From: Hydractinia symbiolongicarpus
Taxonomy: Eukaryota > Cnidaria > Hydrozoa > Anthoathecata > Hydractiniidae
DNA length: 64,000 bases
Assembly: GCF_029227915.1 (NCBI RefSeq)
Contig: NC_079877.1
Coordinates: forward strand, 22,345,851-22,409,850
Direction of reading: 5' to 3'
Each line of letters starts with the position of its first letter. The stretch's first letter is position 1. The notes under the pieces are model-generated. The model was given only the letters and a program-made list of their open reading frames with translations. It had not been told where the DNA came from and did not search any database. Below, one piece after another: positions 11,766-54,775 of this stretch. A program made the position numbers and the translations under genes.

Positions 11766-12145
11766 TGATGCTTATTTTGGGTCAGGTGGGGTGTTTGTAG
11801 ATTTATTTTGGGTCAGGTGGGAGTGATTGTAGGCTTTTTTTGGGTCGGGTGGGGTGGTTGTAGCTTTTTTTTGGGTCAGGTGAGGTTATTGTAGGTTTAT
11901 TTTAAGTCAGGTGGGGGTGGTTGTAGTTTTTTTGGGTCAGGTGAGGTGATTGTAGGTTTATTTTGAGTCGGGTGCGGGTGGATGTAGTTTTATTTGTGTC
12001 AGGTGAGGTTATTGTAGGTTTATTTTAAGTCAGGTGGGGGTTGTTGTAGGCTTATTTTAAGTCAGGTGGGGTGATTGAAAGCTTATTTTGAGTCAAGTAG
12101 GGTGATTGTAGGCTTTTTTTGGGTCGGGTGGGGTGGTTGTTGGTT
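11766..12145 (+). repeat. G-rich minisatellite, about 31-bp unit
   Basis: About twelve imperfect copies built around GGGTCAGGTGGGG, then TGATTGTAGG, then TTTATTTT. Copies vary by substitution and by small indels in the T run. The plus strand has closely spaced G-tracts that could form G-quadruplexes. It lies just 3' of the receptor gene. Confidence 0.85.
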
Positions 12146-12497
12146 TATTTTGGGTAATGTGTGCGTAAATTCAGCATGTAGAAGTATGACTCTGATTAAG
12201 GAAAAGAAAAAACTTCTGCGTCCTGGAATGTCAAATACAGCGAAGAGGTCGTGAGAGAGAACTGTTAACACGCCCGTGTTCAAGACTGTAACTACCTCAA
12301 TATCAATCCTTTTGTTTATTATGTATGTAAATGATAATTCTTTATATGTGCAGTGCCGTAACTTTCTCCCAATCTGTTTGTACCTTTATTAGTTTATTTC
12401 AAGTGTCCATTTGGGCATTAGTTTCTAGGTCGTGATGTTACAGTGGTTTGAGTGTATTGTTCTATTGTGTTACGTGTAAACTGCTTGCTTACTTGTC

Positions 12498-15537: not shown

Positions 15538-15785
15538 TTAGTTAGTAGCACATCTGCAACTGGTACATCCGTCACCTAATTGTTCAGTAATGACATCCCC
15601 GTCACATTTGAGTAGTGAGCAATTAGAACGACATGGTTGCTTGCACGTTCTTGGTGCTGTCTGAAATCCACCGCCGCAACATAGTTTTGGTGCTGTACAA
15701 TCGCTATCATTTTTACAATTATCGTCACTGTTTGCAGGAGTTTGACCAGGTGGAGGTACTGGAAAGATGGGACAAGTTGCAGGTG
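15538..15785 (-). CDS. Antistasin gene E19: WAP-like domain, last B-type module, stop
   Basis: Enters in phase 1 and ends TAA at 15538-15540. A proline-rich linker ([13 protein letters not shown]) leads into a WAP-like four-disulfide core ([16 protein letters not shown]). Then [10 protein letters not shown] and GDGCTSCRC form a terminal antistasin-type module. One WAP cysteine of the usual eight seems absent, so that domain is divergent. Confidence 0.8.
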
Positions 15786-17603
15786 CTAAAAAAGAATTAC
15801 TTAAGACATGGGATTTGTTAATGAGCATAATGTAGAACTTACGTCAAAGTATTTTGGCGCGGTTTTAGGAACAAAAAGATTCTTTAACAGAACATAGGCA
15901 ACCTAGGATAACAAAATATTCAAATATACACTTTTTTTCTTTTTATAAAAGCAATTTGATTAAACATTGTTTCAGGGCAGAAATTGATTTCATTTGTAAA
16001 TTACTGTAAAAAAAAATTTAAGCTGAGCAAGTGCAAAGCTAGAAAAACCTCTCGATTGAAGTCATATTTCCTTTTTTTAGTAGCTATAACACAACACCAG
16101 GAGTCAGTACAATGGGATACGCCCATAATTTTAAAGAACTCAATACGATGGATATTTATTTAAAATCAATGTTTTTTCTTGTGCAAACTCTTTTTCTTCA
16201 TATTTTCGATACGATGCTTATTTGAAGCGCGCAAAAAAAGCAATAAAACTACTTTTATCGAGCGATATTTCGACGTTTATTTATGAAAAACGTGTACCTT
16301 ACCCAAGTTGAAATACTTAAATCAGTTAATATATTCGAAAATGTTTAATTTTAACTGGAATACAAGAACTGTACCTTGACATTATTAATGTTCATGGAGT
16401 CTTAAATACTTTCTGTTGGTGCAGACTTAAATGCTTTCTGTTGGTGCAGACTTAGATACTTTCTGTTAGTGCAGACTTACATACTTTCTGTTGGTGCAGA
16501 CTTAAATACTTTCTGTTGGTGCAGACTTACATACTTTCTGTTGGTGCAGACTTAAATGCTTTCTGTTGGTGCAGACTTAGATACTTTCTGTTAGTGCAGA
16601 CTTACATACTTTCTGTTGGTGCAGACTTAAATACTTTCTGTTGGTGCAGACTTACATACTTTCTGTTGGTGCAGACTTAAATGCTTTCTGTTGGCGAAAA
16701 CTTACATACTTTCTGTTGGTGCAGACTTATATACTTTTGTTACCTCAAGAGAGTATGACTAATAAATCTGGCTAGGAAAATTGATTGCATATGAGATACC
16801 TAGAGGTGTCCCAATAGATTTCTTTGAGAAGATATTTTTACAAAAGACCTGAAAGATTTCAAAAGAATTTGCGAATGAACCTATGGAATAGCGAGAGTAA
16901 ATTATGTCAAAAAATAGGTTAAAATGTTAATGTTCTTACGTTGTTTGCATACACAATGTGTGCATCCATCGTCTCCAGTGTATGTATCAGGTTCAAATTC
17001 ACATTTAATTACGCACGACGTTGCACCGCATGCTAAAAATTTGAGTAGAATTAATTTTTTTGTATTTAAGACTACTAAAAGTTACCCGAATTTACTCGTA
17101 ATTGCATTTTTTCGGTTTAAAAGCAAGAAAAACACATACATCCCTTTTGAATCATTTAGATTCTGCTAATATTGTTAGGAGTTTTTTATTGTTGTTAGAA
17201 CAGCAATTCGATTTGTAATTCTTACCCTTATTTGCAATCCCTCTGCCACGTCGTATTGTACACAATTTTAATGTTCAGTTATGATATTTTAAGATTTTAA
17301 CGATGAATGATTACATTAATGGCTACTGCTTGTTACAGTGGCCTGATAATAAGTCAGATCAGAACAGAAAATATACGTCTTAGGAAGGGAGAACATATCT
17401 GCACAAAATAATCCGCATAAAAAATACAAATAGGGACTACACATAATGGAGATCGAGCAGGCATCATAAATCGTGCAGAATAGATAAAAAATCGAGCAGG
17501 TATTACAAATATGCTAAAGTGATAAAAACTTACATTTCGGTAAGCACGTTGTCTTGCAGCCATTCTTAATCCATGCGAGGGACAGGCTAAACAAATGATG
17601 AGA

Positions 17604-17679
<76 letters not shown>

Positions 17680-20600
17680 CAATGTGGAGAGCAATTGTGA
17701 GTGCATATCATATTAACAGGATACCATTACAAAGTTGCAGGATAATCGCGAAATCCCTTTGCCTCGGCAGCCCAGGGACTCGAACCCGGGATCGTCGCAT
17801 CAGATGCACCGCAGGCTCTTATCCACTGAGCCACGTCGTCGGCAAAAGGATTCGTGAGAATCCAGACAACTTTGGTATTTCGGCTAACAAGCCTTCGTCA
17901 GCGGATACCAGAGCCAGTATTGAGCACTGCAGGAACTCTGGGGCAGCTCGAGCTATATATATTCCAATGTGGAGAGCAATTGTGAGTGCATATCATATTA
18001 ACAGGATACCATTACAAAGTTGCAGGATAATCGCGAAATCCCTTTGCCTCGGCAGCCCAGGGACTCGAACCCGGGATCGTCGCATCAGATGCACCGCAGG
18101 CTCTTATCCACTGAGCCACGTCGTCGGCAAAAGGATTCGTGAGAATCCAGACAACTTTGGTATTTCGGCTAACAAGCCTTCGTCAGCGGATACCAGAGCC
18201 AGTATTGAGCACTGCAGGAACTCTGGGGCAGCTCGAGCTATATATATTCCAATGTGGAGAGCAATTGTGAGTGCATATCATATTAACAGGATACCATTAC
18301 AAAGTTGCAGGATAATCGCGAAATCCCTTTGCCTCGGCAGCCCAGGGACTCGAACCCGGGATCGTCGCATCAGATGCACCGCAGGCTCTTATCCACTGAG
18401 CCACGTCGTCGGCAAAAGGATTCGTGAGAATCCAGACAACTTTGGTATTTCGGCTAACAAGCCTTCGTCAGCGGATACCAGAGCCAGTATTGAGCACTGC
18501 AGGAACTCTGGGGCAGCTCGAGCTATATATATTCCAATGTGGAGAGCAATTGTGAGTGCATATCATATTAACAGGATACCATTACAAAGTTGCAGGATAA
18601 TCGCGAAATCCCTTTGCCTCGGCAGCCCAGGGACTCGAACCCGGGATCGTCGCATCAGATGCACCGCAGGCTCTTATCCACTGAGCCACGTCGTCGGCAA
18701 AAGGATTCGTGAGAATCCAGACAACTTTGGTATTTCGGCTAACAAGCCTTCGTCAGCGGATACCAGAGCCAGTATTGAGCACTGCAGGAACTCTGGGGCA
18801 GCTCGAGCTATATATATTCCAATGTGGAGAGCAATTGTGAGTGCATATCATATTAACAGGATACCATTACAAAGTTGCAGGATAATCGCGAAATCCCTTT
18901 GCCTCGGCAGCCCAGGGACTCGAACCCGGGATCGTCGCATCAGATGCACCGCAGGCTCTTATCCACTGAGCCACGTCGTCGGCAAAAGGATTCGTGATCC
19001 TCCCTGGGCTGCCGAGGCAAAGGGATTTCGCGATTATCCTGCAACTTTGTAATGGTATCCTGTTAATATGATATGCACTCACAATTGCTCTCCACATTGG
19101 AATATATATAGCTCAAGCTGCCCCAGAGTTCCTGCAGTGCTCAATACTGGCTCTGGTATCCGCTGACGAAGGCTTGTTAGCCGAAATACCAAAGTTGTCT
19201 GGATTCTCACGAATCCTTTTGCCGACGACGTGGCTCAGTGGATAAGAGCCTGCGGTGCATCTGATGCGACGATCCCGGGTTCGAGTCCCTGGGCTGCCGA
19301 GGCAAAGGGATTTCGCGATTATCCTGCAACTTTGTAATGGTATCCTGTTAATATGATATGCACTCACAATTGCTCTCCACATTGGAATATATATAGCTCG
19401 AGCTGCCCCAGAGTTCCTGCAGTGCTCAATACTGGCTCTGGTATCCGCTGACGAAGGCTTGTTAGCCGAAATACCAAAGTTGTCTGGATTCTCACGAATC
19501 CTTTTGCCGACGACGTGGCTCAGTGGATAAGAGCCTGCGGTGCATCTGATGCGACGATCCCGGGTTCGAGTCCCTGGGCTGCCGAGGCAAAGGGATTTCG
19601 CGATTATCCTGCAACTTTGTAATGGTATCCTGTTAATATGATATGCACTCACAATTGCTCTCCACATTGGAATATATATAGCTCGAGCTGCCCCAGAGTT
19701 CCTGCAGTGCTCAATACTGGCTCTGGTATCCGCTGACGAAGGCTTGTTAGCCGAAATACCAAAGTTGTCTGGATTCTCACGAATCCTTTTGCCGACGACG
19801 TGGCTCAGTGGATAAGAGCCTGCGGTGCATCTGATGCGACGATCCCGGGTTCGAGTCCCTGGGCTGCCGAGGCAAAGGGATTTCGCGATTATCCTGCAAC
19901 TTTGTAATGGTATCCTGTTAATATGATATGCACTCACAATTGCTCTCCACATTGGAATATATATAGCTCGAGCTGCCCCAGAGTTCCTGCAGTGCTCAAT
20001 ACTGGCTCTGGTATCCGCTGACGAAGGCTTGTTAGCCGAAATACCAAAGTTGTCTGGATTCTCACGAATCCTTTTGCCGACGACGTGGCTCAGTGGATAA
20101 GAGCCTGCGGTGCATCTGATGCGACGATCCCGGGTTCGAGTCCCTGGGCTGCCGAGGCAAAGGGATTTCGCGATTATCCTGCAACTTTGTAATGGTATCC
20201 TGTTAATATGATATGCACTCACAATTGCTCTCCACATTGGAATATATATAGCTCGAGCTGCCCCAGAGTTCCTGCAGTGCTCAATACTGGCTCTGGTATC
20301 CGCTGACGAAGGCTTGTTAGCCGAAATACCAAAGTTGTCTGGATTCTCACGAATCCTTTTGCCGACGACGTGGCTCAGTGGATAAGAGCCTGCGGTGCAT
20401 CTGACGCGACGATCCCGGGTTCGAGTCCCTGGGCTGCCGAGGCAAAGGGATTTCGCGATTATCCTGCAACTTTGTAATGGTATCCTGTTAATATGATATG
20501 CACTCACAATTGCTCTCCACATTGGAATATATATAGCTCGAGCTGCCCCAGAGTTCCTGCAGTGCTCAATACTGGCTCTGGTATCCGCTGACGAAGGCTT

Positions 20601-23600
20601 GTTAGCCGAAATACCAAAGTTGTCTGGATTCTCACGAATCCTTTTGCCGACGACGTGGCTCAGTGGATAAGAGCCTGCGGTGCATCTGATGCGACGATCC
20701 CGGGTTCGAGTCCCTGGGCTGCCGAGGCAAAGGGATTTCGCGATTATCCTGCAACTTTGTAATGGTATCCTGTTAATATGATATGCACTCACAATTGCTC
20801 TCCACATTGGAATATATATAGCTCGAGCTGCCCCAGAGTTCCTGCAGTGCTCAATACTGGCTCTGGTATCCGCTGACGAAGGCTTGTTAGCCGAAATACC
20901 AAAGTTGTCTGGATTCTCACGAATCCTTTTGCCGACGACGTGGCTCAGTGGATAAGAGCCTGCGGTGCATCTGATGCGACGATCCCGGGTTCGAGTCCCT
21001 GGGCTGCCGAGGCAAAGGGATTTCGCGATTATCCTGCAACTTTGTAATGGTATCCTGTTAATATGATATGCACTCACAATTGCTCTCCACATTGGAATAT
21101 ATATAGCTCGAGCTGCCCCAGAGTTCCTGCAGTGCTCAATACTGGCTCTGGTATCCGCTGACGAAGGCTTGTTAGCCGAAATACCAAAGTTGTCTGGATT
21201 CTCACGAATCCTTTTGCCGACGACGTGGCTCAGTGGATAAGAGCCTGCGGTGCATCTGATGCGACGATCCCGGGTTCGAGTCCCTGGGCCGCCGAGGCAA
21301 AGGGATTTCGCGATTATCCTGCAACTTTGTAATGGTATCCTGTTAATATGATATGCACTCACAATTGCTCTCCACATTGGAATATATATAGCTCGAGCTG
21401 CCCCAGAGTTCCTGCAGTGCTCAATACTGGCTCTGGTATCCGCTGACGAAGGCTTGTTAGCCGAAATACCAAAGTTGTCTGGATTCTCACGAATCCTTTT
21501 GCCGACGACGTGGCTCAGTGGATAAGAGCCTGCGGTGCATCTGATGCGACAATCCCGGGTTCGAGTCCCTGGGCTGCCGAGGCAAAGGGATTTCGCGATT
21601 ATCCTGCAACTTTGTAATGGTATCCTGTTAATATGATATGCACTCACAATTGCTCTCCACATTGGAATATATATAGCTCGAGCTGCCCCAGAGTTCCTGC
21701 AGTGCTCAATACTGGCTCTGGTATCCGCTGACGAAGGCTTGTTAGCCGAAATACCAAAGTTGTCTGGATTCTCACGAATCCTTTTGCCGACGACGTGGCT
21801 CAGTGGATAAGAGCCTGCGGTGCATCTGATGCGACGATCCCGGGTTCGAGTCCCTGGGCTGCCGAGGCAAAGGGATTTCGCGATTATCCTGCAACTTTGT
21901 AATGGTATCCTGTTAATATGATATGCACTCACAATTGCTCTCCACATTGGAATATATATAGCTCGAGCTGCCCCAGAGTTCCTGCAGTGCTCAATACTGG
22001 CTCTGGTATCCGCTGACGAAGGCTTGTTAGCCGAAATACCAAAGTTGTCTGGATTCTCACGAATCCTTTTGCCGACGACGTGGCTCAGTGGATAAGAGCC
22101 TGCGGTGCATCTGATGCGACGATCCCGGGTTCGAGTCCCTGGGCTGCCGAGGCAAAGGGATTTCGCGATTATCCTGCAACTTTGTAATGGTATCCTGTTA
22201 ATATGATATGCACTCACAATTGCTCTCCACATTGGAATATATATAGCTCGAGCTGCCCCAGAGTTCCTGCAGTGCTCAATACTGGCTCTGGTATCCGCTG
22301 ACGAAGGCTTGTTAGCCGAAATACCAAAGTTGTCTGGATTCTCACGAATCCTTTTGCCGACGACGTGGCTCAGTGGATAAGAGCCTGCGGTGCATCTGAT
22401 GCGACGATCCCGGGTTCGAGTCCCTGGGCTGCCGAGGCAAAGGGATTTCGCGATTATCCTGCAACTTTGTAATGGTATCCTGTTAATATGATATATATAT
22501 ATATATATATATATTCAAATTCTTAGTGAGGACATTTATAGCCTAAACAGTCGGTATCAATTTTGCTTGCACGTGCTCTAAATGTTTGAACTCTGTGCAA
22601 TGCTGGAAATTTTGATAATCCATTTCATTACTTTAAAATTGTTTTTCTTTTACCTTGTGTTCTGCACGTGCACGTTTTGCAGCCATTTTGATCAATAAAA
22701 TGGCCATACTTGCAACTGTTACTGCAAACTGAATCACAGTTACCTACAAAGAAAATAATTGTTTTGTCAAAAAACAAAACATATAAACATACCCCCTTTT
22801 TTCAGTACTATTCCCAAAGTAAAAATTAAAAATATGGGAAAATTTATGATAATTATATGAAACATTACAAGATTGCATTAAATTTGCAGGAGACATTACA
22901 AGTTAAAATCTATTAAACATCAATTATCCGAAATGTGACAAATGTTGCTGGCGAAGGTCTTCTTGGATATTTTTCTTATTATTACTTTGACTATTAAAGG
23001 GAATGTTTAAACAGTTGTTGAAGCATATGAAGCAAGTCCAGGTAACTCATGGGTGATATTGATTAGCATGCTACTTCAGGGGGTAATTTCTCGTCAAATT
23101 ACTTCTGTCGTTAACTTAGCAGTACATGGGAAAACGTGTCGTTTTATTGACTTAAAATTCGCTGTTTACAAACATAAACGATTGTGGGTTTTTAGTTCTG
23201 AAGTCACGAGATTGCAAAAAACATTAATAGTTAGTAGTTCAGGATAGTGTAAATTTTAGAATCCCTGTAAAAAAGTACAATCGAACGTGTAAAAGCGGCC
23301 ACTCTTCGGATTTTAAATGTTAAATAAGCATATACTAATAAAATACAATTTTATTAAATAAAATACAATTTAATAAATCCAACAGTATTTACCTTGAGGC
23401 TTACATGCGCAGCCTTCGCATCCATTTATATCCAACCTTCTTCCAAAGGGACAGGAGATATTACATTTGGGCGGACACTCTAAAATAGTAAATATAAAGG
23501 CACCTGTCATTACTGCATCGTTTGACATAATGACGAATTAACTCCGATCAAAGTGATTTGTTTTCTGCAAAATTTTACCTGCACAGTGAAAAACTAATTG

Positions 23601-26600
23601 TGAGTCAATTCTGTTTATCTTAAATAGATAGACCGACATTGTCTTTATGTCGAATTTTCATTAAGATTTAAAGAAACTATTAAACCTACTCCGACATTTG
23701 CAATGAGTGCAACCATCGTCGCCTGTAAACTTGATTTGACCAAAGGAACATTTTAGAGCTGCGCAAGAAGTTACACCACAAGCTAGAATGAAAAAAATAT
23801 AACAGTGTCTACGACGACAACATCACCAACCACAACGATTACATCAAACACCAACAAAAACAATTATTGGCAAAAATATTTAGCGAGAAAGTAAACCCAG
23901 CTGTGTACCATTTTTTCTACAAAATCTTACATTTCGATTTGCATTGACAAGACTTGCATCCGTTTTTGTCAATAACGTTTCCATAGAAACAAAATTTCTC
24001 ACATGGTGGTGGACAAGCTAAATGATAGAAGCTATCACGTAAAAATACTGACAATGGAGTAATATCATGATATTGTTTTATAATATTCTGACATACATGT
24101 TGTAATTTAAACAGGTTTCTTTCCCCATATCTGTTTTTTTAAGTATCTGTTGGCTTATAAAATAAAGCCGAAAGTGTTTATAAGACATTTTTTGCATTTA
24201 CCTTGAGTTCTGCATTTACATGTTTCGCAACCATTTTGATCGAGTACCTTTCCATGTTTGCAGCTCAATGTGCATGATTCAAACGGACAAACTGGTTATG
24301 GGAAGATACAACAACATCACTATATGTCTTTATTAGAAATATTCTTTGTTACAAGTTTTGATGTATTCAAGTACTATCATGATACTTACGCTGTGGATTA
24401 CATGCACAAGCTTTGCAACCGTTTACATCCAATCTGCGTCCAGTTGGACAAAAAATATTGGTACAAGATGCTGGGCATGCTAAAAAATACAATAGATTAG
24501 GGTTGACCAATTTTCGTAAAGTTTTATTTACAACACCATGGTTTGAAAGCATGTCCCAGCTACAATGAAAACATGTAACATGGTGTTAAATGTTTTGTTT
24601 TGTTATTTGTTATGTTATTTGAATGTTTTGTTAGAATGATTACGGTTAGTGAACAAATTATTGCCCAATATTGTATCATTTTGTTGTTATTCGAGGGTAA
24701 AATGTTATATGCTATGTTTAACGATTTCTCAAATGATTTGGCAATATTGATTGGAAATTAATCATACATTCCTGACCACATCTGCAATGTGTGCAACCAT
24801 CAGCTGCAGTATAGAAAGTCGTCGTTATAGAACATTTAAATGCTGCACATGATGTCAACCCACACGCTAGAAAGTAACGAATAAAACAAATTTAGTTACA
24901 ACTTTGTAGGATTCACAAAACGATTTCAAGGCGTAGTGACTGTTTTCTCTGTAATTGGCTAAAACACGAGACCATCCGAAAAATCTTTTCGAAGTCAGTG
25001 TCCTGATTATCCAAGGAAATTTAATAAACGCTTATAATGTAATTTTGTGTTTACTGAAAGTTGTAATGTCCATGTTAAAACACATTTTGCAGTTTCTTTC
25101 ATTTCGCTTGATGTTGATTAATAAATGGCTAGGCAGAAGATAACTTGCTTACTACGAGGTTTGCATTTGCATAACTTGCAACCATTTTCATCAATTTCGT
25201 TTCCATATAAACAAAACATTTTGCATAAGGGCGGACAACCTGAAAAAATTAAATTGCATATCGTTCTATCAACACTACAGTATTATATCCCTCTACTCAT
25301 AAGTTTCGGTATTCCCATTTACAGCATATGATAATTGATGTCATATATCACACTCAATGTAGTAGTGCAAATATTAATTGTCCTTCCTTGATGATTACCA
25401 GACGTATACTACAGCTTTAATTTTAAAAATGTCCTAAACCAAGGTTCACAGAGATAAAGTCTAATTTTAAATAAAGATAAAGTCTAAATTTTTATATCAC
25501 ATTCAACAAGAAAAAAACTTACGTCTTGGTTGGCATTGACAAGTACGGCATCCGTCCTGATCTTAAACGTTTCCAAAAGGCAAAACTTTGTGCATCCTTT
25601 AAGGCATACTAAATAAAATTATTCGGTACTTTGTAACACTAGCTACAGCTACGTTTGTTCAGAATATTATGTTTAATAGTTTGTTTTAATCAGCCAATAG
25701 TCTTCCCAGACCCTTTAAGTATATCTCTTCCCTTCATCCCATCCGGTTAACTCTTTTACCTGTTGCAAAAAACACTTTAGATCGAATCTCTCCACAGTGT
25801 GCGAAAATTTTTGTCCAGTAGTCTCTGCTTTAGCGTGGTTTACTGTAAAAAAATATCTGAAATATCCAACATGCTCAAAAAGCGCAACAAAGTAAAATTT
25901 CAAAAGGGAGAATTTTTATTTTTAAAAGTTTTAAAAACTGAAGAAGGTTTTAAGATGTCTTGAAATTGGATTTTGTTGAACATTGCTAAATTTATAGATT
26001 GGCTGAAATGGTAAACATAAACTTACATTTGGCTTTACATGTGCATCGTTTGCAGCCATTTTGATCAACTACGTTTCCAGTGGGACAAAATATATTGCAC
26101 ACAGGAGGACATGCCTAAAAACAAGTTAGTAGATGTTATGAAACAGGTAAAGAAGGAAAAATAAGTATAGGCTGAACTCCACTAGGCAAGATATTGGTTT
26201 CTACTTTTCAACGGTGGACACTTTCGCTAACCTAGTGGGGATGCACCTTTATAGATATATAACAAATAGGAAATTAAATTACAAATAAACAACAAAAATA
26301 AAGAAAAGGTAGTTATAATAACGTTTTGCTTTACACAAACATTTTTCACAACCTTTGTGATCTCTAAACTTGGCGATTCCGTATGGACATTTTAGACGAG
26401 AGCAATAAGACATAGGCCTACAACTAAAATAGAAAAGATAGAGATTTGGAATGGAAAACATGGAATATCAAATTCATTTTTTGTCTCCCTCCCCCATGTA
26501 ATGTAACTGTACTTAAATTTTTATTTCAAAACATCCGTACATGCAATATTAGAAATATGCAGAAATGTTGGCTTTGAAATGTCGTATATAAAGCTTTAAG

Positions 26601-29065
26601 CTGAAAAAAACATTCTTTGCATGCTGACAAAGTAATTTATTTTGTTTACTTACAAATTGAGAAAGTATTATTAAAGTTACTTGAGTCACAGCCAAAAATA
26701 TAAGTTTCAACCAAAATACCATAGAGTGACATAAACAAGAATTAAAGCAATTGGACATACATTTCGGTTTGCATTTACAAGTATCACAACCATTAATATC
26801 CGTTTCAGCACCAAACAAACAGAATACGTTGCAAGATAATTGTGGGCATGCTGAAAGGGAAAATATGAAAAAGAAATATACGTACATTGTTAGATTCCTT
26901 GTAGACAGTCAAAAACCAAGAAATGAATAAACAAACTTGTTACTGATATTACACGTGCTCTTTAGTTTCATACAAACTTTTGTTGGGCAAACGTGGAATC
27001 AAATATAATAAACCAAATTTTCTGGATCACAAAAACTTCATGCATTATTGACATTGCAAAATTTGACAAGGTTTTTGTTCTTGGTTTAAGAAACTGGAGA
27101 GGGAAAAAGTTTAAATAAGATTTCGGTTATTCTAAATCTTCTTAAAGGAAACAAGCGCAGAAGGAAATAGTGACAGTAACATAAATAGTTGGACAGAAAT
27201 AGAAAAAAAAAAAAGATTTGTGGAAGAATCCACTTTAACTTTTAAAGTTTATTGCGCTTTTAATCACAAAACCATTATTGTTAACTTCATTAAAACGGCA
27301 AATAAAACGTTTTAACCCAATTCGGTCCAGAGGAGGCTAATTCCGCCCCCTCTGTCGTTTTTTTTTAATAACTCTTATTTGCTGTGCTGCATAGTTATGA
27401 TAATTATTCAGTTTTTGCATTTATCTGTTAGGCAACTATATGCCAGATACTTAGTTCCCATACCTCTCAAAGCTTTAGATATTGGCTATTACTCGAAACT
27501 ACCCTTAAAAATCTCTACGAAATCCTTATAAGTTGGAAACTATAATAACTTTCTTAAGATTATTCTTAGGACTTGAAACATACAAGACAACTTTATTTCG
27601 TTAAGAGGAATATTTCCGTAATTTTTGGTCACGTGATTAATTCAATGACCCGATATTTTTCGGATTTTACCAAAAAATCTGGTCAATTCTTGGCCTTTAA
27701 TGCGATCTATGTAAAACCGGAAAATATGTTAGCTAACTTTTATTTAGCCGTCAGAAACTTTTAACAGAATGTAAAAGCTTTTGATGACGTCACAGAAAAA
27801 GTGCTACCATTAGCAAAAGGTTATTGCAGCCACTTTTTTTTTATCTTCCATAAATATTGTAAGTGTGCCAAGTTCAATTTGGAGAACCGAATAACAATGT
27901 TTAATTGAGGTACTTTGGCGTAGTAAGTATATATTTACTGAAGATAAACCTACCTTTCTGTCGACAGACGCAAGTTTGGCATCCATTTTTATCTAGCAAC
28001 TTTCCGAAGTGGCAATATTTATCACACACTGGTGGACAAGCTAAAATGGAAATAATTCTAAAAAATTTTTGGCGTTCTTTTACCTTGTATTGTATTTGTG
28101 TTGTATTCAATGATAATGAATGTCAAACAATAAATTTGAAATTTGAAATTTAAAAAAAGCAAGAATTTCTTTGATGTTAATTCTCCTATAACCATAAGTC
28201 TATATTTCAACAACGTAGCTAAATTATGTCTTAACAAAAAAACTAATAAAAAGTTAAAAACAAAAAATGAAATAAAATGTTACATTTTGGTTTACATCGA
28301 CAGGTGGGGCAGCCATTCTTATCTAAAATTCGTCCATATGGGCAATAGATCAAACAATTTGGTCCACAAGCTATAGATACGAAAATAAAATAGTACTATT
28401 ATATTTTACCATCCACAATAATTAAAGTATACAACGTAAACTATGAAACGCAGGAAATATTATGATGATAAAACTGTTCACAACACCTCTACAAAACATA
28501 TACACTTACCGCACACTCCTTGTTTTAATTGACCTGACTTTTTCACACAGAATAATCCCTGGTTGCACTTTCCAAAATATGTACCACATGTTTCACCCAT
28601 CACTCTGGCGCATTTATCACAACAACCACATCTATCTTTCACAAGACCAGCTAAATGATGTAACAAATAAATTTCATAAGGCTACGATGATTCCAAGTGG
28701 TAATAATATTATAATTGACTTACCAAATAATATAAAAGAAATTGGGAAGGTAATATTGTTAGCTAAGGTATGGCTGTGAGCATTTACCATGAAAAAAATA
28801 ATATAAAAGATATGATGTCTCAACGCAAAATAATATACCAGAAGAAATAACGAAGTTTACACTAAGTAGATGAAAAGCGCGTTCCAGGATAACATTTTAA
28901 ATTGGTAACAATAAAACAAAACAGTTAGTTTCTGATACACTTACCTTTGCAGTTAAGAGGCGTACTGCATTTCACAAATGCACAATTAATGCATGGTTTG
29001 GCATCAATACTGACCAACCACACGTTAATAATTATACACAAAAATAGTAAAATTTTAAGCAACAT
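15538..29065 (-). CDS. Secreted IGFBP / antistasin-repeat / WAP protein (spliced gene, exons E1-E19)
   Basis: This spliced minus-strand gene is assembled from exons listed separately. Domain order is signal peptide, IGFBP N-terminal-like cysteine domain (E1-E2), a long run of antistasin-type modules of about 28-33 residues (E3-E18), then a WAP-like domain with a last antistasin-type module (E19). Almost all introns are phase 1, so most modules are symmetric 1-1 exons. Skipping the damaged exons E6, E7, E8 and E17 leaves 1590 bases, 529 residues, in one frame. Antistasin modules occur in serine-protease inhibitors of leeches and Hydra. IGFBP plus antistasin also occurs in CRIM1, which additionally has VWC domains. 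Protease inhibition or growth-factor binding outside the cell is inferred from the domains. A minus-strand intron hosts the 285-bp repeat array. Confidence 0.8.
16401..16739 (+). repeat. 25-bp minisatellite with a five-unit higher order
   Basis: About 13 copies of a 25-bp unit like CTTACATACTTTCTGTTGGT plus GCAGA. Unit variants (AAATGC, AGATAC with TTAGTG, ACATAC, AAATAC, ACATAC) recur in the same order twice. This shows that blocks of five units (125 bp) were duplicated. It lies in the last intron of the antistasin gene. Confidence 0.85.
16940..17032 (-). CDS. Antistasin gene E18: module B, cycle 4
   Basis: 93 bp, phase 1-1, donor CAAC|GTAAGA. B-type signature [10 protein letters not shown] followed by [11 protein letters not shown]. 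Confidence 0.8.
17534..17586 (-). pseudogene. Antistasin gene E17: module A3, cycle 4, internally deleted
   Basis: Splice sites survive (acceptor tttgtttag, donor AAAT|GTAAG), but the exon is 53 bp instead of about 87. The 3' part still reads [11 protein letters not shown], the end of an A-type module. The middle, with two of the cysteines, is gone and the frame is lost. It lies about 20 bp from the (TA)n flank of the 285-bp array, so the array arrival and the damage may be linked. Confidence 0.65.
17606..17677. repeat. (TA)n tract at the left edge of the 285-bp array
   Basis: About 36 TA dinucleotides run directly into the first 285-bp unit. Confidence 0.95.
17678..18998 (-). mobile_element. 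285-bp repeat array, left block (minus orientation)
   Basis: About 4.6 near-identical 285-bp units. tRNA-like heads lie on the minus strand starting (right end to left) at 18983, 18698, 18413, 18128 and 17843. Four full hammerhead-like motifs sit at 17857-17909, 18142-18194, 18427-18479 and 18712-18764; the fifth is cut by the junction at about 18998. The plus-strand open frame of 485 codons through this block is a by-product of 285 being 3 x 95. Confidence 0.9.
19155..19207 (+). ncRNA. Hammerhead-ribozyme-like motif of the 285-bp unit (representative)
   Basis: The order of core elements is that of a type I hammerhead. GGTATCCG is the first strand of stem I. CTGACGA (19163-19169) is the core, then GGCT-TGTT-AGCC forms stem II, then GAA (19183-19185). 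A short weak stem III closes to the GTC cleavage triplet (19197-19199), and TGGATTCT is the second strand of stem I. Stem I pairs at 7 of 8 positions including two G-U. Deviations are one extra A between CTGACGA and stem II, a stem III of about three pairs, and a competing GGTAT/ATACC pairing. Sixteen copies, every 285 bp in each block. Confidence 0.5.
19221..19304 (+). promoter_or_regulatory. tRNA-like head of the 285-bp unit (representative): internal Pol III promoter
   Basis: The 84-base head has a box A (TGGCTCAGTGGA) and a perfect box B (GGTTCGAGTCC). A good D-arm (GGCTC/GAGCC) and a mostly paired T-arm are visible. The anticodon arm and acceptor stem do not fold as a canonical tRNA, so this is a tRNA-derived Pol III promoter rather than a tRNA gene. 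Seventeen complete copies exist (5 minus, 12 plus). Confidence 0.75.
22491..22514. repeat. (AT)n tract at the right edge of the array
   Basis: A short AT run replaces the expected unit sequence after 'gttaatatg', marking the right boundary of the array. Confidence 0.9.
22654..22743 (-). CDS. Antistasin gene E16: module A2, cycle 4
   Basis: 90 bp, phase 1-1, donor CAAG|GTAAA. Starts [10 protein letters not shown] and ends [13 protein letters not shown]. The intron after it contains the whole 285-bp repeat array. Confidence 0.8.
23393..23479 (-). CDS. Antistasin gene E15: module A1, cycle 4
   Basis: 87 bp, phase 1-1, donor CAAG|GTAAA. Starts CPPKCNISC and ends [14 protein letters not shown]. 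Confidence 0.8.
23690..23782 (-). CDS. Antistasin gene E14: module B, cycle 3
   Basis: 93 bp, phase 1-1, donor CGGA|GTAGG. B-type signature [11 protein letters not shown] followed by [10 protein letters not shown]. Confidence 0.8.
23931..24017 (-). CDS. Antistasin gene E13: module A3, cycle 3
   Basis: 87 bp, phase 1-1, donor AAAT|GTAAG. Starts [12 protein letters not shown] and ends [10 protein letters not shown]. Closest sibling is E9. Confidence 0.8.
24202..24291 (-). CDS. Antistasin gene E12: module A2, cycle 3
   Basis: 90 bp, phase 1-1, donor CAAG|GTAAA. Starts [10 protein letters not shown] and ends [13 protein letters not shown]. Closest sibling is E16. Confidence 0.8.
24390..24479 (-). 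CDS. Antistasin gene E11: module A1, cycle 3
   Basis: 90 bp, phase 1-1, donor CAGC|GTAAG. Starts [10 protein letters not shown] and ends [14 protein letters not shown]. Closest sibling is E15. Confidence 0.8.
24768..24866 (-). CDS. Antistasin gene E10: module B, cycle 2
   Basis: 99 bp if the donor is GAAT|GTATG; an upstream GT (TGTG|GTCAGG) would give 90 bp in the same phase. B-type signature [11 protein letters not shown] followed by DGCTHCRC. Confidence 0.72.
25153..25239 (-). CDS. Antistasin gene E9: module A3, cycle 2
   Basis: 87 bp, phase 1-1, acceptor ttttttcag, donor CGTA|GTAAG. Starts CPPLCKMFC and ends [10 protein letters not shown]. Confidence 0.78.
25523..25608 (-). pseudogene. 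Antistasin gene E8: module A2, cycle 2, frameshift plus stop
   Basis: 86 bp, one base short. The 5' half reads [10 protein letters not shown] in the gene's frame. A one-base loss before CCTTTTGGA then shifts it, and in the restored downstream frame the module shows an in-frame TAA (GTT TAA GAT) where relatives have GTN NTT GAT. The end [10 protein letters not shown] is still visible in that frame, and both splice sites are intact. Skipping it keeps the reading frame because flanking introns are phase 1. Confidence 0.75.
26027..26114 (-). pseudogene. Antistasin gene E7: module A1, cycle 2, one extra base at the acceptor
   Basis: 88 bp instead of 87. The acceptor tttttag is followed by GCATGTCC, so the module (CPPVCNIFC through [10 protein letters not shown]) is intact only if entered in phase 0. 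Every upstream intact donor is phase 1, so inclusion shifts the frame to a stop within the exon. The coding content is otherwise perfect and the donor AAAT|GTAAG is good. A GC donor in E6 (TGTAAA|GCAAAA) could in principle supply phase 0. Confidence 0.55.
26323..26423 (-). pseudogene. Antistasin gene E6: module B, cycle 1, frame-damaged
   Basis: The sequence encodes a recognisable B-type module ([11 protein letters not shown] and HKGCEKCLC). The exon begins TTGT after the AG instead of the usual NTTGT or NATGC, so one base is missing and entry is phase 2 while the upstream donor is phase 1. Read from phase 1 it hits a stop after about ten codons. The donor (AAAAC|GTTATT) is also weak. Probably a decaying or skipped exon; an assembly error of one base is the alternative. 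Confidence 0.6.
26761..26850 (-). CDS. Antistasin gene E5: module A3, cycle 1
   Basis: 90 bp, phase 1-1, acceptor ccctttcag, donor AAAT|GTATG. Starts [10 protein letters not shown] and ends [10 protein letters not shown]. Confidence 0.8.
27312..27904 (-). mobile_element. piggyBac-like MITE copy in an antistasin intron
   Basis: TTAA at 27312-27315 is followed by CCCAATTCGGTCCAGAGG. The interior aligns in reverse orientation with 3282-4034 (for example the 'ctcgaaactaccctt' and 'gatgacgtcacag' blocks). The right end, GAACCGAATAACAATG before TTAA, is decayed. Confidence 0.6.
27954..28040 (-). CDS. Antistasin gene E4: module A2, cycle 1
   Basis: 87 bp, phase 1-1, donor AAAG|GTAGG. Starts CPPVCDKYC and ends [10 protein letters not shown]. 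The following intron contains a piggyBac-like MITE at 27312-27904. Confidence 0.8.
28284..28370 (-). CDS. Antistasin gene E3: module A1, cycle 1
   Basis: 87 bp, phase 1-1, acceptor ctatag, donor AAAT|GTAAC. Six cysteines in the order C-x4-C-x3-C-x2-G...DKNGC-x2-C-x-C, the antistasin half-domain. Confidence 0.78.
28510..28650 (-). CDS. Antistasin gene E2: IGFBP N-terminal domain core
   Basis: 141 bp, phase 1-1. It carries the IGFBP signature [18 protein letters not shown] followed by GLFC. With E1 it supplies the usual CGCC-centred cysteine pattern of the single IGFBP domain. Confidence 0.82.
28945..29065 (-). CDS. Antistasin gene E1: start, signal peptide, first half of IGFBP domain
   Basis: The ATG is at 29063-29065. 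About 22 hydrophobic residues ([13 protein letters not shown]...) form a signal peptide, then [11 protein letters not shown] and a further Cys-containing stretch begin the IGFBP domain. Donor AAAG|GTAAG, ending in phase 1. The start is chosen because the signal peptide follows directly. Confidence 0.8.
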
Positions 29066-34255: not shown

Positions 34256-34516
<261 letters not shown>

Positions 34517-46058: not shown

Positions 46059-46238
46059 TCTTGGTGATTGGTTAAACTACGTACCCAAGCCTTAGTGATT
46101 GGTTAAACTACGTACCCAAGCCTTAGTGATTGGTTAAATTGCGTACCCAAGCCTTGGTGATTTTTTAAACTGCGTACCCGAGCCTTGGTGATTGGTTAAA
46201 CTACGTACCCAAGCCTTGGTGATTGGTTAAATTACGTA
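46059..46238 (+). repeat. 31-bp minisatellite
   Basis: Nearly six copies of a unit CTTGGTGATTGGTTAAACTA plus CGTACCCAAGC with scattered substitutions. Each copy contains ATTGG, the inverted-CCAAT (NF-Y) core. It lies about 550 bp upstream of the small secreted-protein gene. Confidence 0.88.
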
Positions 46239-46773
46239 CTGTTGGTCGATTTACAAAAAATGTGAAAGGTGAAAAAACGCAGCTACACATTTGATAAAAA
46301 AAGTTGAGTAAGTTTTGCATCACGAAGTATAGCTAAGAGAAAGCAATTTGCGATACAAACTATATTGTACAAACGTACCGACTTTTTTCCTGTTTTACAT
46401 TACAGCAAAATTCTAGTTTCATATCATTTAGAATGCGCTTTAATTGGATTAAAACTTCATTTCCTAATTTCTTCTGTATTTCGTACCATTCTACTATGTA
46501 TTTTCAAAACATTAAAAAATTTAAGCAGTTATTGAAACTTTTTTTTCCTGTTTAAAAGCATTCAATAAAAGAAATGTTTCCGAAATGCATCATTTTTTAG
46601 CAGACACATTAGGTAATTAATACTTGCCACGAGTCTTTTTATTCTGATGACAATATTTTTAATATTCACAAATAATAGGGAGATGATAACACTGTGTGAC
46701 AATCAGTGGATGAGATCATTCACATATCCTATCTTAAAAAGCAACTACTTTATCGTTTACGTTACAAGACAAA

Positions 46774-50558: not shown

Positions 50559-52413
50559 ATGTTTCATAGTGAAGATTACCAAGAAAATGGAAATAATAAT
50601 ACCGAAGTTTTTACCATGCATCAATTCCAAGATCAAGGTAGGTATTGATTTATTTTACCGACTGTTAGTCTTGCGGTGGAGCAGCAGCTTCCAGTGCGGA
50701 AGGTAGTAGGTTTAATCCCCAACTTTAGTCATGCCAGGGACTCTAAAAGTGTAAATCAATACTTTTTGTTTAGCATTTATCATGAGGATAGGAATGATTT
50801 TCTACACGGTTACTTAGTTAAGTGTTTTCCGGGCCAACACTCGCAGAATGCGCTAGGACTACCTTTGTAAAACCCTAATCGAGAACAGTACCAATAGAAA
50901 CTGAAGAGACTATCCTGGGCGAATAGTCGCAAGAAATTTAAAACAATCCCTATAATCATGTGAAATAATCCTGTGTTTAAAGCGACTGTATGGATCCTTT
51001 GCAAATTTATCTAATCCATATTTATTTGTTTTTGGACTGGTTTATTTGACAATTTTCTGAGCCAGATGGCTTTTATGAATATATATTGATTTTTTTTTTC
51101 CTATTTCAGAGAGTGTTGATATAGAAACATTATACGGATCAGATGAAAAGTTGTTGCGGAAAAAAGATGAGTACCAGAAAACATTCTCAGTACATGGTCT
51201 AACAAAAATTTGCACTGGAAGTAAAGCTGAATCGATATTTTGGATTATCATCCTTCTTTCTGGTCTGTCTGTTTCAATTCTTCTTGTTTACCGACTAGTG
51301 CGAAAGTATTTGCAATTTAACATTTACACTGAAGTGACTGAAATAGCAACCAATCAAAACACTTTTCCTGCAATTACATTCTGCGATTACAATTTAATGC
51401 TGGCCAGTTACTTTGCATACTGTGGAACCTTAGCTGGCGCGAGTCATCCAAATCCAAAAAATCCCTGTGATGCTTCAAGAAAGAAAAAAAAAATTTCAAA
51501 TAATTCGAAAAAAGTACCAGTAAAAGATGGAAGATGGAATAGTAATTTTTACAATGTTGTTAAATGTCATTCGTGGGGTTCTAAGTCTTGCAACAGTGGT
51601 AAATACTTAACATCTCTAACTCAATACTCTCATGCTTGCTTCACATGGAACTATAATGGAGATTTCCATGATGCTTATGGGCATGCCTTTATAATGTTTG
51701 AAGTGAATGAAACTTTTACAAAGCAGCATTCATATATTGTTGCACTTGTGCATGATCCTAGAGTAAAAGAATTGGACATGACCAATAGAGTAATTTTAGA
51801 ACCAAAAAAAGCATACGAACTAAGAATTGTAAAAACGATGCTAAAAAGATTGCCTTCGCCCTATCCATCGAACTGCACTGCAGGTAAACCAATTGATATT
51901 TTCCCCGGTAAATACACACGTCGAACGTGTATGGAATCCAAAGTGTTTGTAAGAATGCTGAAGAAATGCGGAGATGTGCCAGACCACGTAGCGCAGTACA
52001 TTCCACAGCACATGAAACAAAAATATGCTACCAATAATAGTGTCAGGGATGTTTTGAAATGCATTTATGGCTTTCAAAAAGAAGAAATTGAAATTGCGAC
52101 AGATTGTGTGTTACCGTGTGAAGAAATGGAGTTGATGACGATGTTATCATCCCATGAAATGTATGGCAAACAAGATGGAAACAAATCAATATATCGAGTT
52201 GATATACAATACCAGAACGTAGATACTTACAGGGTCGTTGCAGAAAAGAAGCTCTTTTCCTGGGATCAAGTCATAGGAGAGGTTGGTGGCTTACTTGGCT
52301 TGGTCATTGGCGCATCTTTTATGTCTGTTATTGAAATAATCGCATATCTTTACCTGAGCTGTATTGATAAAATCAAAAGCCGATTCAGAGTAGAGTTGAG
52401 TTTTATGCCTTAA
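50559..52413 (+). CDS. DEG/ENaC family sodium channel subunit (two exons: 50559-50637, 51110-52413)
   Basis: Exon 1 encodes 26 residues from ATG and ends in phase 1 (CAAG|GTAGG). Exon 2 follows a pyrimidine-rich acceptor (tcctatttcag) and runs to TAA, for 460 residues in all. Visible hallmarks are the His-Gly gating motif in FSVHGLTKI (about 55-56), TM1 at about 69-88 (FWIIILLSGLSVSILLVY), and the post-TM1 FPAITFC motif. A cysteine-rich extracellular loop with ATDCVLPCEEMEL follows. TM2, near 411-440, contains the selectivity-filter GAS within GLVIGASFMSVIE. Size and layout fit Hydra HyNaC-type, neuropeptide-gated subunits of trimeric channels, but the ligand cannot be read from sequence. The intron holds a SINE-like repeat. 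A paralogue starts at 59170. Confidence 0.92.
50660..50900 (+). mobile_element. Possible tRNA-derived SINE in the DEG/ENaC intron
   Basis: GTCTTGCGGTGGAGCAGCAG resembles a degenerate box A region. AGGTTTAATCCCC, about 35 bases on, resembles box B. A non-tRNA body follows, with 'ccgggccaacactcgcagaatgcgctagg'. It is unlike the 285-bp unit and the 33665 candidate. A single copy, so tentative. Confidence 0.35.
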
Positions 52414-54420: not shown

Positions 54421-54775
54421 CGAACGAGATTATACTTGTCTTACAGAGACCAAATAAAGACGTCTTTGAGACGTTTATTCCCAACAAGATTTTACTGGTC
54501 TTACAGAGACCAAATGAAGACGTCTTTGAGACGTTTCTTTCGAACGAGATTTTACTGGTCTTACAGAGACCAAATAAAGACGTCTTTGAGACGTTTCTTT
54601 AAAACGAGATAAAACTGGTCTAACGGAGACCAAATAAAAACGTCTTTAAGACGTTTCTTTAAAACGAGATTTTACTCGTCTAAACACGTCTTTAAGACGT
54701 CTTTTTCTGGTCGAGAGACGTCCGAACGAGCTAGAGACGAGAAAAGACGTCTTTAAGACGTCTTTGTGTTTACTG
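54421..54775 (+). repeat. 60-bp tandem repeat with nested palindromes
   Basis: Five units of exactly 60 bp (the last diverged), followed by a tail of the same motifs. Each unit carries two hairpins: GGTCT-TACAG-AGACC, and AAAGACGTCTTT followed by GAGACGTTT. The tail holds AAAGACGTCTTT, then AAGACGTCTTT, in dense succession. The period divisible by three gives a 77-codon open frame with a 20-residue repeat, which I regard as incidental. Confidence 0.85.

Follow-up and report, generated by a model that had tools for sequence, protein, structure and literature searches.

The array and its promoter

A 64,000-nucleotide stretch of the Hydractinia symbiolongicarpus genome (contig NC_079877.1, positions 22,345,851 to 22,409,850; hereafter the window, whose own numbering is used throughout) was found to contain, at 17669-22494, a tandem array of a 285-bp unit in which a transfer RNA (tRNA)-like promoter and a motif resembling the hammerhead ribozyme lie on the same strand (Table 1). 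The array is probably a variant retrozyme, a classification made from sequence, and its core motif, its AT target and its use of two internal end sites recur in a Penelope-like element resident in the same genome. The original prediction had placed tandem 285-bp units at 17678..22490, with box A and box B in the units and an ordered hammerhead core on the promoter strand, and all of this was recovered here (the boxes in the full units, the core in the order described, with an extra A and a short stem III of three pairs); it had overlooked the inverted half of the array, the (AT)n flanks as a target and the Penelope partner.

The array consists of two arms joined head to head. The direct arm carries 4 singleton substitutions (19115, 20405, 21290 and 21551) and the units of the inverted arm are identical, with 0 substitutions. 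The 5' start of the inverted arm lies about 8 nt or less from the predicted hammerhead cut, and there is microhomology at the junction; this start is not taken as a stop at the cut. The array is flanked by (AT)36 on the left and by a shorter AT run on the right, and the unit itself has a GC content of 50.2%. Elsewhere in the window, a perfect (AT)n repeat of 128.5 dinucleotides at 34258-34514 is a target of this kind and holds no retrozyme copy.

On the direct strand, every full unit retains intact copies of two short elements that we take to be box A and box B of an RNA polymerase III (Pol III) promoter, as they match the textbook consensus. The weak score of the surrounding region against the tRNA model might be compatible with a degenerate head like that of a short interspersed nuclear element (SINE), and ARAGORN, run in its bacterial setting, predicted no tRNA. 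The T run at unit positions 18-21 varies from 3 to 5 between loci.

Table 1. Features of the retrozyme array and its first direct unit, in window coordinates.
Feature	Position	Strand	Basis or remark
Left (AT)36 microsatellite, presumed insertion target	17606..17677	.	repeat scan
Inverted arm, 4.66 x 285 bp	17669..19000 (right edge approximate)	-	RNA-3' end at unit position 196
Head-to-head junction of arms	18997..19003	.	few shared bases
Direct arm, 12.26 x 285 bp	19001..22494	+	RNA-3' end at unit position 160
Hammerhead-like motif, first direct unit	19158..19204	+	same strand as tRNA-like head
Stem I, 5 pairs	19158-19162/19200-19204	+	
CTGACGA	19163-19169	+	
Extra A	19170	+	
Stem II, 4 pairs	19171-19174/19179-19182	+	
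GAA	19183-19185	+	
Stem III, 3 pairs	19186-19188/19196-19198	+	
Predicted cut	after C19199	+	end of GTC
TTTT just 5' of promoter, possible weak Pol III terminator of preceding unit	19217..19220	+	begins at unit position 18
tRNA-like promoter region, full-length match to tRNA model	19224..19299	+	below threshold: 11.9 bits, gathering 29, E 9.4
Presumed box A, TGGCTCAGTGG	19231..19241	+	matches textbook consensus
Presumed box B, GGTTCGAGTCC	19278..19288	+	matches textbook consensus
Putative start site 1, AT run where insertions end (unit 149-160)	19348..19359	+	9/27 AT-abutting 3' ends
Putative start site 2, AT run where insertions end (unit 187-196)	19386..19395	+	17/27 AT-abutting 3' ends
Right (AT)n flank	22489..22514	.	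continuous with unit's own AT run

A dispersed family with stereotyped 3' ends

As the original prediction had proposed, the genome (480.9 Mb in 76 contigs) was searched with one unit as query, which gave at least 133 matches, a lower bound since 40 of the 67 first-look candidates were scored. The family occupies the window and 27 further loci, mostly at 95% identity or more. Outside the window 36 stretches were examined, comprising these 27 younger loci (L013-L039 and L045; L024 shares its flanks with L023, and L048 belongs with L032) and 7 stretches with older copies (L040-L044, L046 and L047, of which L043 and L044 are alike). Ends were measured on 37 younger segments, the window included and L024 and L048 being duplicates; the older copies, the fragment L096 and L097-L101 were set aside. 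Eight of the 37 have no adjoining alternating AT of at least 7 (L025, L026, the minus arm of L028, L035, L036, L037, L038 and L045).

The RNA-3' ends that do abut such a run fall at few places. Among 27 distinct termini, the window's two included, each with an AT run 3' of the RNA-3' end, 17 lie at unit position 195/196, 9 at 160 and 1 at 137, such that 26 of the 27 coincide with the unit's two internal AT runs, 36 nt apart. The 5' ends are scattered over the unit. The ends carry no poly(A) or tail of the long interspersed nuclear element (LINE) kind, the insertions are multi-unit and end within a unit, arms range from 0.3 to 12.3 units, and the (AT)n at the insertion sites masks any target site duplication.

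These data bear on whether the array is an ordinary satellite, expanded by unequal crossing-over and containing a hammerhead-like stretch by chance. The high homogeneity of the tandem units would fit such an origin; the dispersed loci, the range of arm lengths, the stereotyped ends, the variants fixed locus by locus and the rarity of the motif by chance (see below) all speak against it, and as the genome-wide ends already contradict it in the main, we consider it very improbable. A retrozyme-like class, as named in the original prediction, is the best one, with the qualification that Rfam returned no hammerhead; the 27 further loci, one variant per locus and the stereotyped ends support a mobile element.

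Two groups of copies have a local history of their own. At L032 and L048 (G000:C14:1977200-1990600) a retrozyme copy recurs every ~3 kb, and this insertion was probably amplified later together with its flanks. L023 and L024 lie on different contigs with the same copy and the same flanks as far as these are shown, through segmental duplication or as a matter of assembly. A protein search also recovered two short predicted proteins (P0034 and P0035) that match the unit's antisense open frame and whose translations retain parts of the tRNA-like head and the hammerhead region; read as antisense translations of related units, they hint at a family in other organisms. Among viral contigs, two exact patterns had no match and a looser pattern gave 4 loci.

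Double-armed loci and uniformity of the monomers

Head-to-head arrays were found at seven loci (the window, L014, L017, L019, L021, L022 and L028), and in six of these one arm ends at 196 and the other at 160, the arms of L028 ending at 112 and 160. The mean difference between full units is 0.39 nt within a locus (144 pairs) and 5.2 nt between loci (105 pairs from 15 loci, with L023 and L024 both counted). In loci with at least 3 units, the covered units of both arms all carry the variants that tell one locus from another, and variants within a locus are mostly confined to one unit. A monomer circle read repeatedly by a reverse transcriptase would explain the fixed variants in one step; a multimeric transcript would require a source array that had become uniform for the variant beforehand.

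The hammerhead-like motif

All 11 conserved positions of the hammerhead core are presumably present in the unit. A motif grammar (CTGANGA, at most 1 extra base, stem II of at least 3 pairs, GAA, stem III of at least 1, NUH and stem I of at least 4) matched once in the unit, with 0 matches on the unit's other strand and 0 in the other 59 kb of the window on both strands. Dinucleotide shuffles of the unit satisfied it in 14 of 20000 cases, 6 of them with a stem I of at least 5 pairs and 0 with this stem I together with a stem III of at least 3.

The pairing is also mostly kept among copies. Across 19 distinct retrozyme rows, 94.5% of cells in the hammerhead pairing are paired, a level reached by 9 of 500 shuffles, and the covariation score was reached by 15/500. 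Stem II is 100% paired in these rows, and its fourth pair occurs as CG (7), UA (7) and UG (1). When Penelope copies were added (22 distinct rows), 0/500 shuffles reached the score, in an alignment fitted to the model and thus favouring the structure. An alternative hairpin was considered as the conserved fold and rejected (87.7% paired, 185/500 shuffles). The unit RNA as a whole is highly self-paired (z -4.33; 0/200 shuffles as stable), with 67% of its bases paired in the minimum-energy fold, slightly less than the 70% quoted in part of PMC4918200.

The original prediction had cautioned that an extra A next to stem II might reduce or abolish activity. The extra A is present, and it also stands in the hammerhead core of the resident Penelope-like element and in most older copies, which makes it a trait of the family and not a private defect. 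A 2001 paper reportedly deals with an extra nucleotide in the core of a natural viroid hammerhead. Self-cleavage of the transcript would give monomers of 285 nt. A Penelope hammerhead is described as cleaving only with its protein present (PMC11167929, in part), so that a failure of the naked RNA to cleave would not be decisive.

A Penelope-like element with the same core and two internal ends

Next to retrozyme copies at L014, L016 and L030 we identified nearly the same 24-nt core in a second family, whose 3' end at these loci is the neighbouring AT repeat. An open reading frame (ORF) upstream of that core has Pfam matches slightly under the cut-offs to RVT_1 (28.0 bits, cut-off 29.6) and GIY-YIG (19.0 bits, cut-off 22.6). 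Homologues of this ORF at E<=1e-20 numbered at least 2785 among 8000 candidates scored, and among the homologues listed many carry RVT_1 and some GIY-YIG. A reverse transcriptase (RT) and GIY-YIG in one ORF are the canonical Penelope layout (PMC11167929, in part), which the partner shows together with a leader repeat bearing the hammerhead core and an optional tail between two end sites.

The Penelope and retrozyme cores are identical at 23 of 24 nt in this genome's copies, the extra A included. A genome-wide search found 95 instances of the pattern CTGANGAAGGCNNNNNAGCCGAAA and 0 of the reversed-pattern control; among the matches listed the loop is TTGTT in every one. A T stands at the variable base N in 21 copies, whose context marks them as Penelope leaders, a G in 1 retrozyme copy and a C in all others. 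Of the 21 leader copies scored, 3 continue into the ORF; the other 18 end at a first AT run (8 copies), at or near a second (6 copies, including the divergent L083 and L086) or elsewhere (4), so that 14/18 use the two sites. The first run lies 44/50 nt after the core and the second 73-86, the runs being 41 nt apart. L085 and L088, which have flanks in common, may represent a single event. In four pairs, Penelope copies of opposite orientation have outward ends, and these pairs are candidate single insertions; both sites are used by the pairs L049, L084 and L087/L088, and the first site twice by L050. At L084 and L093, Penelope-type copies are joined head to head, the junction lying at the hammerhead cores or close to them.

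Like the unit, then, the Penelope-like element has the core with its extra A, AT targets and two internal end sites, and the unit differs from it in being non-coding and in having Pol III boxes, a stem I of greater length and a looped stem III of three pairs. The Penelope motif may be read as a hammerhead of the minimal kind, its stem I having four pairs and its stem III being AU-rich and palindromic. Minimal hammerheads in Penelope-like elements were reportedly described by Cervera and de la Pena in 2014 and by Lunse in 2017. The Penelope leader is furthermore colinear with unit positions 146-195 across both sites (score 24), a likeness that is suggestive only.

The corresponding ends bear on whether both families use the same machinery. 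For a lizard Penelope protein, part of PMC11167929 describes cutting of AT-rich DNA on both strands and cDNA that begins internally at two adjacent sites, matching an optional genomic tail of 30-40 bp. Were the retrozyme instead moved by another enzyme, such as that of a LINE, its core would be common with Penelope through old common descent or convergence. In keeping with such an enzyme, hammerhead repeats of Nematostella are described with 15-bp LINE-like duplications (PMC4918200, in part), and the likeness to the leader beyond the core is modest. Against this, the ends of both families fall at two internal AT sites, spaced 36 nt in the retrozyme and 41 nt in the Penelope-like element, and lie mostly in (AT)n; opposite-orientation copies with outward ends occur in each family, and two-site internal initiation is described for Penelope in that part of PMC11167929. 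We regard a different enzyme as improbable.

Comparison with known systems

The metazoan non-LTR retrozymes (Cervera and de la Pena 2020, PMC7229834, in part) are like the unit in size (a few hundred bp), tandem habit, a hammerhead-like motif of type I and a highly self-paired RNA, and in neither was a protein domain found; their size and spread (~150-450 bp, many loci) agree with 285 bp and the loci counted above. The unit differs in its GC content, marginally so against the <50% given there as a descriptive trait, and in ending at fixed internal AT sites and having a hammerhead unseen by Rfam. Parts of the same source name Penelope elements as a strong candidate helper of metazoan retrozymes, a proposal that rests on their coexistence, their tandem arrangement and the hammerheads present in both (PMC7229834 and PMC7761336, in part).

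The Sm-alpha/Sj-alpha repeats of schistosomes resemble the unit, by description and not by sequence, in combining a tRNA-derived part and a hammerhead in SINE-like repeats; they are described as containing a full tRNA (PMC4918200, section 10), and Sj-alpha is cited by title in part of PMC8490949. Repeats joining a tRNA and a hammerhead are already known in schistosomes. With tRNA-derived SINEs the unit shares a tRNA-like head with A and B boxes, albeit of weak tRNA model score, and it differs from them in being tandem, with ends at 160/196 and without single copies that have a defined 3' tail.

A proposed route of insertion and the case for an uncleaved template

On balance we lean towards a Pol III-promoted, non-autonomous, retrozyme-like element, with a Penelope enzyme reverse transcribing its circular or concatemeric RNA from two internal sites. 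The boxes suggest that the tandem array would be transcribed, after which the hammerhead would cut the transcript to 285-nt monomers that are ligated into circles. The resident Penelope GIY-YIG/RT protein would then bind this RNA through leader-like features, namely the hammerhead core, whose similarity is described above, and the stretch with the two start sites. The enzyme would open an (AT)n target and prime cDNA internally, at unit position 196 or 160 as the observed ends indicate, and synthesis would circle the template repeatedly. Where both DNA ends prime, the two cDNAs, usually from different sites, would join head to head as in the loci seen here, giving a homogeneous inverted-plus-direct array such as that of the window. 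Whether the tRNA-promoted retrozyme mimics the Penelope leader, such that the Penelope enzyme copies a foreign circular RNA with one start site per DNA end and lays down rolling-circle arrays head to head, is in our judgement evenly poised.

A number of observations weigh against this reading, and several of them would suit a Penelope-dependent SINE without a working ribozyme, in which the hammerhead stretch is a protein binding site only and the template is uncleaved, multimeric read-through RNA. The covariance-model check proposed in the original prediction failed to match: Rfam gave no hammerhead in the whole window at gathering score, nothing in 990 nt at E<=5, and in 191 nt at E<=10 six matches that were weak or unrelated, with no hammerhead among them. 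A genome search with RF00163 gave one 20-bit match (E 8.7), below the cut-off and outside both families, with 73 of 43,074 first-look candidates scored. Folding of the unit and of dimers, also proposed there, found the RNA highly self-paired as stated above, but with the hammerhead less stable than the best fold in both: the local minimum-energy fold hides the core (-14.9 vs -4.1 or -6.1 kcal/mol), and the double-hammerhead dimer reaches -11.4 vs -37.4 for the best dimer fold. Plant retrozyme RNAs are also described with blocked hammerheads (PMC4918200, section 10). In the 19 rows, double-sided pair changes (188/500 shuffles) and further pair types (251/500) show no excess. The hammerhead region has no special conservation in 11 old copies (83.4% vs 80.7% overall, rank 61 of 285 windows); most old cores are damaged, with CTGANGA retained in 4/11 and GTC in 7/11 by eye.

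The ends add to these points. The 5' ends of the 37 segments do not cluster at the predicted cut site, and 24 of 27 cDNAs extend >8 nt beyond the cut, the exceptions being the short plus arm of L014, L039 and L029 (~8 nt), which means that the template junction was intact. L029 had been taken as an exact 5' end at the cut, from an alignment edge at unit position 1, and was rejected because its flank continues the unit for ~8 bases. In part of PMC11167929, insertion is unaffected by hammerhead mutants and unprocessed RNA is the main substrate, so that cleavage is dispensable for insertion in vitro. Monomer uniformity has exceptions: a variant at position 265 is found in 2/4 units of L016 and one at position 33 in 2/6 units of L022, a G-to-A change at 72 recurs in two loci, and position 193 in the repeated cluster of L032 is a further exception (position 156 is noise from AT ends). 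On the Penelope side, 9 of the 14 two-site ends run directly into at least 7 of alternating AT; the likeness of the leader to unit 146-195 is moderate, being equalled in 25/2000 shuffles; and no similarity to the unit shows in the 400 nt that precede the Penelope core (1493/2000 shuffles).

The clear likeness to the Penelope leader, the core plus stem II, is likewise what a bare binding site would leave. Three lines speak for a cleaved template over such a SINE: multi-unit loci are uniform for one monomer variant in both arms, which a single circle would produce in one step; divergent copies accommodate the hammerhead pairing better than they do the alternative hairpin; and the TTTT at unit 18-21 should curb long Pol III transcripts. 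A SINE without a working ribozyme is, to us, rather unlikely, and the retrozyme copied by a Penelope enzyme stays the reading we prefer.

Other features of the window

Further tandem repeats lie at 16401-16741 (25-bp unit), 11772-12155 (31 bp), 46060-46239 (31 bp) and 54423-54681 (60 bp). A stretch of the amiloride-sensitive sodium channel family at 51079-52413 is open over 444 codons; named relatives of its ORF occur only in Clytia hemisphaerica (31-38% identity), in keeping with a hydrozoan host. Antistasin was matched at 26549-26908, and WAP, below the cut-off, at 15538-15843.

Implications for retrozyme movement

Judged by titles and abstract openings, we found no paper reporting Penelope-type ends for a retrozyme, and the genomic link described here between a retrozyme and a Penelope-like element (a common core, target kind, two internal end sites and double-armed arrays) seems to be new. 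For the movement of animal retrozymes, a Penelope helper has so far been a proposal; as the ribozyme core, the AT target and the two-site end pattern are common to both families in one genome, that proposal becomes testable. That double-armed insertions use the sites in pairs gives a concrete hint of the way in which Penelope proteins may treat two DNA ends, and the Pol III boxes suggest how elements of this kind come to be transcribed.

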